Source: Boothiomyces macroporosus (taxonomy: Eukaryota; Chytridiomycota; Chytridiomycetes; Rhizophydiales; Terramycetaceae). From it: a stretch of 30,784 bases of DNA. Below are positions 3,346 through 30,636 of this stretch, piece by piece (within the stretch, counting starts at the first letter, position 1; each line of letters starts with the position of its first letter). The stretch is from positions 1 to 30,784 of the forward strand of contig JADGKB010000140.1 of NCBI GenBank assembly GCA_027604185.1, in the 5' to 3' direction. The position numbers and the translations under genes were made by a program. The notes beneath the pieces were generated by a model. That model did no database searches and was not told where the DNA came from. It was given only the letters and a program-made list of their open reading frames with translations.

Positions 3346-6300
3346 TTAATTAAAAGGGTTTTGGTTTCCAGCTGGTCTAGGGAAAGATGTTGGTGGAGGA
3401 CCAACAGGTCGAGTTAGTGGAGGACGAACTGGCTGGACTCCAATGGAAGGGCCATTTAGAGGCGGACCGTTAATGGGTGGACGATTTGGTATAGGTGCCC
3501 CGATTGGCGGTCTATTCAATGGTTGACTTGGTACATTACTGACTACAGGTCTTTGTATATTTGCAATTGAAGGAGGTCTTGTCCCAACAGGCGGCATTTG
3601 ATTGAACCTTGGAGGGCTTTTTGGAGGAAACCCTCCAACCTGACCAGACTGAGGCTGCTGAGAATGTTGAGTTGATAAAGGTTTCTGTACAGGAGACTTT
3701 GTATTTTGAATTCCAAGGCTCCCGCTTGAAAACCCAGTTTGGCCTTGTTGAGTTTGAGAATCCAACATCACATTGCCTAACCCTTGTTGAGGTAACGGTT
3801 GAGTTGCCATAGGCGGACGTCCAACAGAAGTTGGGGGAGCTGAAGGACTTCCCTGATTGCTGTTTGGAGCAAGTGTTCCATTTACATGGGGGTTTACGAT
3901 TGGGGGTGGTGGCACTTTTGTAGATTCGAAATTGTTTGGAGTATTTGCAGGAGCCAAAACAGGAGGTGGTGTAGCAAAGGAAATATCATTCATTTTTGAT
4001 ACAGGTGGGGGAATCTGCGGCGCTTGGACATTATTTTGTACTGGAGGTTGTTGGTTGCCCGTTGGAACTGGAGGTGGGGAAAGTTCATTCTTTTGAACAG
4101 CCAAAGGAGAAGGGTTTGGTGGAAAAGAAGATGGCTGTGTACTAACAGGAACAGGTGGTGCACCATATTGGTTTGGAGGTGGAGATGTGAAATTTTGTGT
4201 AGGTGGAGGATTTGTAAAAGTCTGGGTTGGAGAGGTAAAGGTTCGTGTTGGAGGAGGACCAAATGAGTTCACTGGAGGGGGATTATTTTGAATTGGCGGA
4301 GGGGCGAAATTTGCAGGAGTAGCTGTATAACTAGATGAAATTGGAGGAGCTCCATAGTTTGTAGTCGTAGGTGGCGGAGCAACTGGATGGTTGTAACTGG
4401 TTGATACAGGAGGTGCTCCATACTGATTAGAAGAAATAGGAGGTGCTCCATACTGATTAGAAGAAATAGGAGGAGCTCCAAACTGATTAGAAGAAATAGG
4501 AGGAGCTCCAAACTGATTAGACATGGGAGGAGGCATAAAGTTTCCAGATGGGATTGGTGGAGCTCCAAACTTGGCTGATGAAGTTGGAGGGGGTGCCAAA
4601 CCAGTTCCACTGCTAAAACTGGCTCTTGGCGCAGCAGGTTGAATTGCTGGTGAAGGAGCAGGTCTTGAAAGTTTTTCCAAACCATCCAACAGTCTTTTAA
4701 TTCCTACAATCCATTGACCGGTAGCTGTAAAATGATTTTTCCTCAAATCGTGTTCAACTTTTAGAGCAGTTGAATAATCTCCTTGTTCCAATGCTAAAAT
4801 TAACTGAAAATAACCTTTAGAAAATGCGGATAACTGACCAATCACGCCTTGCTCAACTTGATGGCTGTTCATTTGATCAAATAGGATTTCCAACTTTTTG
4901 TGTCCATCAGAAAGAGTTTTTTGTTCATCAACCTGGAATTAAATCATCTGTACGCTTTTCATTGAACTGGAGAGCTTCTCCCATTGTTTAGTAAGTGACT
5001 CAAAGACTGCTTTTTCTACCGGGTTTGTTATTTGACTTCTATCATTTACCACTAAAGTTAGGATTTTAATTACAAAGTTTTGGCTCAATAGGAGGAGGAG
5101 GTTGTGAAACAATCGAGTCTTGCCGAGGAAGAGGGTAATTAAAGTTTTGATTAGCGTTTGGAGCGACAAATGTTGGTGGTTCATAATGAGCCTCCGCAAT
5201 TGGAGGTGCGTGCCCAGTAGAGTTAACTCTCGAAGCAGCAGTCACGGGTGGAGCTGAGTTGTAGCTAGTTGCTGGAGGAGGAATCCATTGGTTTGCTGCA
5301 GTTACAGAAGGCGGGCCAGGGGTAAATGATGGAGCCTGAGCTGTGTAAGGATTACTGATTGGAGGTGTGGTTCCATAGCCAGGTGCTGGTGGTTGATTAT
5401 AACTATTAATAGGTGGCGGAGCAGGCGAAACATTATACGGGTTGCCAATTGGTGGTTGACCGTATGAACTGCCAACTGGCGGATACTGAGTGCTGCCTGA
5501 ATATTGATTGTAGGTTGTTCCTTGATATTGGTTATACTGGGGGAATCGGCTTTGTTCGCCATACGATTGATTATTCCAACTATTTTGAGGAGCAGAGTTA
5601 TTTGCTTGGAAAGACTGATATTGGTTACTTACTGCCGATCTCGCTTTTTCAGCTGCTTCATTTTCCCTTCGTAATTTCTCTCCGTCAAAGACATTCACCC
5701 TTTCGAATGGGAACACAGGAGGTTGGCCATTTACAGCCTGTTTGTAATTAAACGCTGTGTACACTCGATCTCTTAGAATGCCAACATCAGGTAATGGTTT
5801 GGATGGAATATAATGGGGAGGCACTTGCTCCAAAAATCTGAAAGCAGCATCTATTTTGTTTTGAGTGGCTGCTGCATATGCGTAATCTATAAACAAGTCA
5901 TACAAATCAGATAGTGCATAGTTGTCCTGAGGGTCTTGTAAAACCAGATCTTGATCATGATAGCTAATCGCCTGACTAAATATTGAAATTTTTTCAATCA
6001 AGTTCAAAAGCTCGATATTATCACCAGGAATCACAGTGCGTTTGTTAGGTTGGCCCTGGCACCACAGCGAAACTACTTTTTCCATTTCTCCTGCTCCAAG
6101 ATAGCAAAGCGCAGCAACATGTTTTCTATCCCCACCTGATGAAACTACCATTCTATTTCCAAGGGTGGAATAATAGTGTGCATACTCTTCAGGTTTGGCA
6201 TAGGTACACACTAGCGCTAGCAAATCCTTCCACGAATCATTTCCGTCCAGCTTTGCGTGCTCTACAACGTCCGTCAAATCGCCATGGTAAATATTTTCAA

Positions 6301-29047: not shown

Positions 29048-30636
29048 CTAAACTGATCCGAAACTATTTTGCCATTCACTGTACTTTTCTTTTAGGGATT
29101 TATCACATGTTGGCTTGGTAGATGAAATGGAAGCTTCAAGATCCTCCAGTGAGACTAGATTCATTTCACACGTTTCTATCGTCAACTAGATTTACCATTG
29201 CTTAATGAGTCACAGGTATCTAATTTGTCAAAGATTTGTCTTAGTGGTCGCATCGCAGCTTCTCTACAAACCAAATTGATGTCGGAACCAGAGTATCCTT
29301 CTGTTAGTTTCGCCAAGTATTGGTAATCCAGTGATTCTACAAGTTGTTTGCCATCGCTGGTATGATGGCTTGTCAACAGCTTTTCAAACAAATGTTCTCT
29401 AGCTTGTATGTCGGGCAAGCCAATCAATATTCTTTTTTCTAGTCGTCTAAGCATCGCATTATCTAGATCCCATGGCAAATTTGACGCTGCTAACAGGAAT
29501 ACATGCTCGTTGGATTTCGCTAAACCATCCATCTGTGTTAATCAAGATTACTTGAATTAGAAGCTCTGTTTTCATTCTTCTTGACCCTTCATGCTCGCTT
29601 TCACTGGATCTTTGGCTCATTATAGACTCTAACTCGTCTATAAATATCGTCGATGGAGAGTGATGCCTGGCAAGTTCGAATAGAACCCTAACTAATTTTT
29701 CAGAATCGCCAAACGTTAGTGATAGATTACCTCTCCATTTACTAACAATTGACGATGCAGATATGTTAAAGAATGTGGTTTTACATTCTGTTGCTATGGC
29801 CTTTGCCAGCATCGTTTTTCCAGTTCCAGGAGGCTACATTAAAATATTGATACTCCATACAGCAAGATCCCTTTCCATGGCTTTAGCAGTCCTTGAAATA
29901 GATTTGGGAACTTCATTGGAAATACAATTGCTTCCTTGATTAGCCGTTTGGATTTTTCTAAACCGCTTATATCTGACCATTTCACATTTGGGTTTTTGAC
30001 ATATATATCTCTGGTTATCACATTTGCTAATTCCTTTAATTCAGAATTCTCATAGAATGGGAGTGGTTTTAGCAGTTTGTGATCGAACGGATCTTCGACA
30101 AGCTCAGCTGCCGGTGCAACAACTTCCTTTTGCATTGACCCAGTTTTCTTTCCTATAGCTTCTAGCTCTGAGCTAACAAGTTTAACTGGTTTTGAATCCG
30201 ATTGCGGTGGAGTCCTGGTTGACTGATTCACCGTTGTGATTGGAGGTATTACAGGCTTTGTACTTATATCTCTCTCTTTGATCTTCCTTTTCTTTACTTC
30301 CATATCTCCCTCATTTGATTTACGCACAAACTTTGGAGCCTTTCCAAATTTGATTTGGTAGTACGATTCATACTCCTTTGTTAATATAATGTACTTGAAA
30401 TATCGTCATCAAGTCAATATTATCCGCAACTGTAATTTTTTTCATTGAAATACTAGATTCTACTTGCAGTTTTTCGAATGATGAGATGTATCCAAAAGAC
30501 AACAAATGGTTTAGGATCAACACCAAAATGTTCCTTTTCCTTTGATCTAATTTGTCTGCTTCCTATATTGAATGCTATTTACTGCTAATCTGGCATCACT
30601 GGTTGCCTTTATTTTACTTAGACTTGCTTCCATCAT
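29048..30636 (-). CDS. KATNAL2: Katanin p60-like AAA ATPase KATNAL2 (6 exons)
   Basis: KATNAL2 is a microtubule-associated AAA ATPase tied to cilia and centrioles. Exons: 30636-30583, 30562-30395, 30375-29854, 29833-29552, 29532-29196, 29175-29048; introns 20, 19, 20, 19 and 20 nt; 496 residues. A LisH-type N-terminus ([20 protein letters not shown], then [16 protein letters not shown]) is followed by a variable linker. The AAA domain has Walker A GPPGTGKT (restored by splicing), [21 protein letters not shown], Walker B IFIDELE, and the second-region [40 protein letters not shown] follows, and the end [12 protein letters not shown] is typical. A seven-residue stretch NLSLTFG interrupts the normally contiguous RG-DSEKL (see 29710-29730). 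The start may extend slightly upstream, but no further Met is in frame. Confidence 0.93.
29710..29730 (-). other. 21-nt intron-like segment in KATNAL2 with TG instead of AG end
   Basis: On the minus strand this 21-nt segment starts GTAATC, has CACTAAC near its end like the branch elements of the other introns, but finishes in TTTG. If translated it inserts NLSLTFG inside the conserved WRG-DSEK loop; if removed, the family sequence SKWRGDSEKL is exact. It has no in-frame stop, unlike the other 3n-length introns here. Confidence 0.5.

Follow-up and report, generated by a model that had tools for sequence, protein, structure and literature searches.

Contig JADGKB010000140.1 of the Boothiomyces macroporosus assembly (GCA_027604185.1) provides a stretch of 30,784 nucleotides (nt), here called the window, in which twelve protein-coding genes are interrupted by very short segments. 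Judged from the sequence, these segments very probably represent U2-type spliceosomal introns of minimal size (18-22 nt, mode 20 nt). Such introns would occur genome-wide in this chytrid (Rhizophydiales, Terramycetaceae) and be removed by an ordinary spliceosome.

The genes in the whole of the window were rebuilt with a simple purpose-written gene finder, followed by a final splice check. After 42 segments are excised, all twelve genes read from ATG to stop with zero internal stops, which bears out the twelve genes and 42 introns of an initial annotation of this DNA. The segments measure 18 nt (one), 19 nt (13), 20 nt (17), 21 nt (six), or 22 nt (five). The annotation had given the same counts for 18-21 nt; it listed four introns of 22 nt and a single one of 25 nt, and the latter is not reproduced. 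A GTA start is found in 40 of the 42, the same count as before. The statement that all are GT-AG holds for 41 of them. The remaining one, in the formin gene (12122-12143, GCAAGT...AG), is GC-AG, and both kinds of ends are those of U2-type introns. Silent retention is ruled out for all 42, because each segment shifts the frame or introduces a stop. A further gene-finder candidate in the Sec31-like gene (4794-4814) was rejected by eye; its retained reading looks natural.

The spliced proteins can be compared with known families. A Pfam scan covered ten of them, that is, all except the Sec31- and UTP5-like proteins, with formin and GRASP covered in part. Nine of the ten matched a family; the phosphoesterase-like protein matched none at E 1e-5. 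The best Pfam stretch crosses at least one junction in seven of them (KATNAL2, formin, IFT81, uS4m, GRASP, CHMP6, and p47); that of the CDGSH protein crosses none. In formin, excision of the GC-AG segment restores the FH2 segment LLLLKDTKAEANNRF, which aligns through to Diaphanous homolog 1.

The same length class recurs elsewhere in the genome. It can be detected without gene models by counting the spacings from GTA to YTAAY-N2-3-AG on both strands, with the expectation taken from lengths of 26-400 nt. The window holds 22 matches at 19-22 nt compared with 2.1 expected (Poisson p about 2e-15). A sample of 200 kilobases (kb) drawn from 20 other contigs holds 148 compared with 18.8 expected (p about 1e-78). 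No further length class appears up to 400 nt in this spacing test: the top count at any length of 26-400 nt in the 200 kb is 12, with a mean of 4.7, which is not significant across 375 lengths. A looser pattern, followed to lengths of up to 80 nt, gives 46 matches in the window and about 14 in dinucleotide shuffles, and the 20 other contigs share the length peak. Over the whole genome, the pattern GTAAT..CTAACNNTAG is matched 108 times, compared with 45 for the reversed pattern. It permits 17-47 nt; 75 of the 100 matches listed (69 of 94 distinct strings) measure 19-22 nt. The peak in the other contigs and the whole-genome pattern agree with the genome-wide style that had been claimed from the window.

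Gene prediction leads to a similar distribution. A gene finder with a flat prior of 12-300 nt, whose splice signals were self-learned from short calls, placed 234 of 288 introns at 17-23 nt and 51 at 30-298 nt. The final model used a length prior and also allowed GC donors. It covered 230.8 kb (the window and 20 stretches of other contigs) and predicted 145 genes with 324 introns. As many as 309 of these introns, or 1.34 per kb, are GT-AG and 17-24 nt long, and form a fixed-length, ultra-short class. Six predicted introns start with GC and are candidates only. GC donors show no excess in a gene-free donor scan (29 versus 66 expected), and GC-AG introns are therefore rare at best.

The donor and branch-motif statistics given below refer to the 309 introns and omit the nine long and six GC-starting calls. 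This set includes the rejected Sec31 candidate (4794-4814) and omits the four introns of the CDGSH and GRASP genes, owing to overlaps or scoring. Three long calls followed up in the window were resolved into shorter introns: 23728-23864 into introns of 20 and 21 nt, 4933-5049 into one 21-nt intron, and 12002-12143 into the 22-nt GC-AG intron.

The 15.2-megabase (Mb) genome would extrapolate to about 20,000 such introns, minus any assembly redundancy. Two contigs, C49 and C100, carry 3288-base-pair (bp) loci that are 100% identical, and three features lie at a constant 1595 bp offset between the two over 40 kb. Some contigs of the assembly are therefore probably duplicates, or haplotypes that were not merged.

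The predicted introns have a regular anatomy. At the donor, A is found at +3 in 90% and at +4 in 54%, T at +6 in 49%, and G at +5 in only 20%, which is background level. The most frequent donor is GTAAT (59 of 309), followed by GTAAG (40 of 309). A branch motif suited to pairing with GUAGUA of U2 takes the form YTAAY in 202, YTGAY in 33, and weaker forms in 61. Branch positions were scored in the 256 of 311 introns having a TRAY motif. In 216 of the 256, the branch A is the 14th or 15th nucleotide of the intron, giving a donor-to-branch distance of 13-14 nt, in line with the earlier estimate of about 13 nt. From the branch A to the intron end there are 5 or 6 nt in 220 of the 256. After the branch, a polypyrimidine tract has no room. 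When ends were scanned without gene models, AG showed the strongest enrichment (at gaps 2 and 3); the remaining enriched end pairs look like register echoes of TAG. Intron phases are biased (151/82/78).

This anatomy bears on two other ways of explaining the segments. They could be assembly errors, pseudogene frameshifts, or retained coding insertions, not introns at all. In the larger set, 7 of 309 are silently retainable, and a segment of KATNAL2 (29710-29730) is open and has no AG end. Frameshift errors would not, however, share a length, a GTA start, a YTAAY at fixed spacing, and an AG across the window and 20 contigs, and no window segment is silent. Such an origin is highly improbable.

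Alternately, the segments could be removed or skipped without a spliceosome, by endonuclease-type splicing or translational bypass. Their length does fall below the range of the human spliceosome in vitro, as given in the available part of one report (PMC6692369). The GT-AG ends, the branch motif at a fixed distance from AG, and the phase bias nevertheless are those of spliceosomal introns, and the spliceosomal RNAs and proteins searched for, RED_N excepted, are encoded in the genome. There is hardly any likelihood left for a non-spliceosomal route.

Evidence for individual junctions can be provided by related species. Prp8 was assembled from contig C58, outside the window, and its modelled length falls short of the true C-terminus. 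Over all of the modelled part it shares 99% identity with Prp8 of Boothiomyces sp. JEL0866, and all five of its short-intron junctions are seamless compared with four chytrid homologues. The deposited JEL0866 protein has a 7-residue insert exactly at junction 1. Such an insert is what would be expected if an annotator had left in a stop-free 21-nt intron. An intron position common with Batrachochytrium Prp8 was considered and dropped, the nine-residue insert there being seven residues off junction 3.

A second example is KATNAL2, whose best matches are chytrids. Its junctions LLYG|PPGTGK (20-nt intron, 29834-29853, minus strand) and LLIQ|MDGLAK (19-nt intron, 29533-29551, minus strand) are seamless compared with complete chytrid relatives. 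The deposited JEL0866 protein lacks the stretch between these two junctions, and that of Terramyces JEL0728 is missing a stretch with one end at LLYG|PPG and the other two residues short of MDG. Such gaps could arise if longer introns had been imposed during annotation. If read this way, the sister genus Terramyces may share the ultra-short regime. The three deposited proteins from JEL0866 and JEL0728 suggest that the public protein sets of the family retain introns or lose exons. Faulty gene models of Terramycetaceae, possibly widespread, could mislead phylogenomics.

The same comparisons concern the identity of the genome. Introns of similar length were earlier reported from nucleomorphs and ciliates, and the genome could in principle be one of these, or a contaminant, instead of a fungus. 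This is barely conceivable given Prp8 (99% identity over 100% to JEL0866), Isy1 (98% to Boothiomyces sp. JEL0838), and the chytrid matches of KATNAL2. The identity of Prp8, together with the presence of IFT81, also supports the flagellated, fungus-like nuclear genome that had been supposed from the window.

Short introns raise the question of whether the splicing machinery is altered. Small nuclear RNAs (snRNAs) were searched with Rfam models for U1, U2, and U6. All three are encoded, as befits U2-type introns, and match their models end to end. U2 is found in two copies (142.2 and 135.4 bits) and U6 in one (62.2 bits), all above the Rfam gathering scores. The pairing sequences are canonical: the 5' end of U1 is AUACUUACCUG, U2 contains GUAGUA, and U6 contains ACAGAGA. 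The two U2 genes have the branch-binding 5' half in common and clearly differ in the 3' half.

Among proteins, SF1, Prp18, Isy1, Cwc25, and Prp8 are encoded, along with a U2AF65-like protein. As far as the factors searched go, these proteins in a 15.2-Mb genome tend to speak against a reduced genome or spliceosome. Short distances from branch to AG conceivably permit the loss of the second-step factor Prp18; that loss is ruled out here, as Prp18 is encoded. Cwc25, read from an internal MGGG, begins MGGGDLNLKKSWHP, identical to human, with an intact GGG plug; the loss of this plug, as in Stentor, is not present in Boothiomyces. The N-terminus of Isy1 departs from the MARN-EKA type start of Spizellomyces and the aligned animal sequences, and a divergent N-terminus is also found in Globomyces, Kappamyces, and Gorgonomyces. 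No conclusion is drawn from it, because the gene model of the 5' end relies on an exon of 1 nt and disagrees with the one deposited for JEL0838.

The initial annotation had held that recognition by U1 and U2 must be unusual, and had suggested inspecting U2 snRNA, SF1, U2AF, and Prp8. That inspection finds a canonical U2, with SF1, Prp8, and a U2AF65-like protein encoded, and does not uphold the claim at the level of snRNA sequence. A related possibility is that the introns are real and recognition is altered, through changed snRNA pairing or lost branch or 3' splice-site factors. A spacing of 13-14 nt far below the roughly 50 nt of human extracts (accessible portion of PMC6692369), +5 G at background (20%), and the divergent Isy1 N-terminus would all fit. 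The Isy1 divergence is, however, shared with Globomyces, Kappamyces, and Gorgonomyces; the U1, U2, and U6 pairing sequences are canonical; SF1, Prp18, and the U2AF65-like protein are encoded; and Cwc25 retains MGGGDLNLKKSWHP as in human. Altered recognition is therefore unlikely. By sequence, the recognition elements look ordinary, and what looks unusual is the 13-14 nt spacing and the absent +5 G preference.

If an ordinary spliceosome does remove these introns, intron definition would be very tight. For human B complexes, the estimated donor-to-branch requirement is about 52 nt, and for human extracts it is about 50, in the part of the source available (PMC6692369). In Boothiomyces, U1 would contact mainly positions -1 to +4, and the footprint of SF1/U2 at the branch would abut that of U1/U6. 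Recognition of the two ends would probably be sequential or use shortened helices, and the space between the branch and AG would be too small for a polypyrimidine tract. U1 and U2 could hardly hold full-length helices together, which would fit both the relaxation of +5 G and sequential recognition. The narrow length range could then reflect a floor set by geometry, with deletion pressure from above.

Several observations weigh against the interpretation as minimal introns of an ordinary spliceosome. The gene-free patterns presuppose GTA and a YTAAY-like branch. A gene finder without any splice model placed only 80 of 166 calls at 17-23 nt, the rest being scattered. Nine of the 324 predicted introns are longer (30-170 nt, candidates only), and 13 of the 309 fall outside every branch-motif class counted. 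U1 scores 68.8 bits, 0.7 under its Rfam gathering score of 69.5. The six-frame search, which is fragmented by introns, scores the U2AF65-like protein at 230.7 bits, below the curated cut-off of 310.3; the family also matched 2 of 14 bacterial controls, below the cut-off. RED_N had no match, which is uninformative, as no control matched either. In KATNAL2, the intron-like, in-frame 21-nt segment at 29710-29730 (minus strand) has a GTA start and CTAAC and ends in TG. It would add seven residues inside SKWRGDSEK; six of the seven chytrid relatives aligned have nothing inserted there, and in the seventh this region is absent. Possible readings are a 3' splice site ending in TG, an error of the assembly, and an insert that the protein tolerates. 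Finally, the window segments are read as introns from genomic DNA, and splicing itself is inferred.

Similar introns are known from a few other systems. In the available part of one report, the nucleomorph of Bigelowiella natans has 865 GU-AG introns of 18-21 nt and keeps the U1, U2 (GUAG), and U6 pairing motifs (PMC6461891). Its introns have no obvious 5' splice-site or branch motifs, snRNAs such as U1, U2, and U5 are reduced in length, and its relict genome measures 373 kb (same portion of PMC6461891). Boothiomyces resembles this chlorarachniophyte nucleomorph in the narrow length range and the canonical U1, U2, and U6 pairing motifs. Unlike the nucleomorph, it keeps GTA and a branch motif, its U1, U2, and U6 cover their Rfam models from end to end, and it has a fungal genome of 15.2 Mb.

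The heterotrich ciliate Stentor coeruleus has introns of 15-16 nt genome-wide, in most of which the branch A occupies position 10 or 11, according to the accessible text of PMC9505925. The U2 and U6 recognition sites are conserved, and the commonest intron, GUAAUUUUUAUAUAG, has no +5 G. The same text proposes two changes that may help to accommodate tiny lariats, a lost glycine plug in Cwc25 and a diverged N-terminus in Isy1 (PMC9505925). Tiny introns genome-wide, conserved U2 and U6 sites, and no preference for +5 G are found in both species. The introns of Boothiomyces are nevertheless 18-22 nt long with the branch A mostly at 14-15, and its Cwc25 keeps the GGG plug that Stentor lacks.

A third case is that of the mikrocytids Mikrocytos mackini and Paramikrocytos canceri, which have fixed spliceosomal introns of 16-17 nt (PMC10245619, as far as available). 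These are intracellular parasites whose spliceosome is reduced to 17-19 proteins, and M. mackini has 224 introns (PMC10245619, same extent). Boothiomyces likewise has fixed, ultra-short spliceosomal introns. It differs in its intron density of about 1.3 per kb, and none of the factors searched is clearly lost.

A literature search for tiny introns in fungi or chytrids gave no such report among the matches listed, with most subscription papers outside its coverage. Within that coverage, this is a known intron type in a new and unexpected place, a chytrid fungus. The Boothiomyces introns appear to be among the shortest known. In the sources available, the earlier records of genome-wide introns of about 21 nt or less come from relict nuclei, heterotrich ciliates, and intracellular parasites.

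There is about an even chance that Terramycetaceae independently evolved minimal introns and that a largely unmodified fungal spliceosome handles 13-14 nt between donor and branch. If this is true, the core machine does not itself impose the roughly 50-nt minimum of human extracts. Likewise, snRNA change, spliceosome reduction, and loss of the Cwc25 plug would all be unneeded below that minimum, and the telling adaptations would be the relaxation of +5 G and perhaps the Isy1 N-terminus. With publicly recorded strains (JEL0866, JEL0838) and chytrid relatives, the question of minimum intron length becomes directly testable in a chytrid. Boothiomyces looks promising for finding the smallest intron that a normal splicing machine can remove.

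The twelve genes carry between one and eight introns each. Intron coordinates are those of the rebuilt genes, and introns lie on the strand of their gene. The Sec31-like gene, named from the initial annotation as are the UTP5- and phosphoesterase-like genes, lies at 3346-8136 on the minus strand and has a spliced frame of 1554 amino acids. Its six introns are found at 7917-7936 (20 nt), 7697-7717, 7439-7459, and 7331-7351 (21 nt each, the last with a GTT start), 5052-5073 (22 nt), and 4933-4953 (21 nt).

The formin gene (8430-13065, plus strand) matches the FH2 family PF02181 with 276 bits over profile positions 6-372 of 372. Besides the GC-AG intron (12122-12143, 22 nt), its seven introns include three of 19 nt (8469-8487, 9549-9567, and 11190-11208) and three of 20 nt (11460-11479, 12414-12433, and 12605-12624). 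It is followed by the UTP5-like gene (13102-14824, minus strand), with three introns at 14262-14281 and 13861-13880 (20 nt each) and 13369-13389 (21 nt). The gene for a CDGSH iron-sulfur protein (14858-15248, plus strand; PF09360) has a single 19-nt intron at 15076-15094. The phosphoesterase-like gene (15425-16889, minus strand) has two, at 16274-16291 (18 nt) and 16127-16145 (19 nt).

Further along, a mitochondrial carrier gene (20264-21141, minus strand; PF00153), Hem25-like according to the initial annotation, has one 20-nt intron at 21026-21045. The uS4m gene (21293-22232, minus strand; S4 domain, PF01479) has one of 22 nt at 21767-21788. IFT81 (22435-24643, minus strand; PF18383) has eight: three of 20 nt (24370-24389, 23845-23864, and 23556-23575), one of 21 nt (23728-23748), and four of 19 nt (23374-23392, 23226-23244, 22765-22783, and 22588-22606). 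The GRASP55/65 gene (24684-26070, minus strand; PF04495, 157.6 bits) has three, at 25949-25970 (22 nt), 25706-25725 (20 nt), and 25471-25492 (22 nt).

The p47/NSFL1-type gene (26114-27200, plus strand) encodes UBA, SEP, and UBX domains (PF14555, PF08059, and PF00789) and has two 20-nt introns at 26452-26471 and 26994-27013. A Snf7-family gene (28325-29036, plus strand; PF03357), previously named CHMP6, has three, at 28424-28442 (19 nt), 28836-28855 (20 nt), and 29001-29019 (19 nt). Finally, KATNAL2 (29048-30636, minus strand) matches PF00004. It has five introns: the two at the LLYG|PPGTGK and LLIQ|MDGLAK junctions and those at 30563-30582 (20 nt), 30376-30394 (19 nt), and 29176-29195 (20 nt).

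Intronless genes are also present near the start of the window. Two adjoining intronless open reading frames at 2041-2637 and 2813-3193 (minus strand) end in the similar tails RLKDDWC and RLRDQWC; they appear to be small paralogues in tandem. An intronless gene at 1362-1982 (plus strand) carries a PGGIGTMEE motif and resembles LOG-type phosphoribohydrolases.

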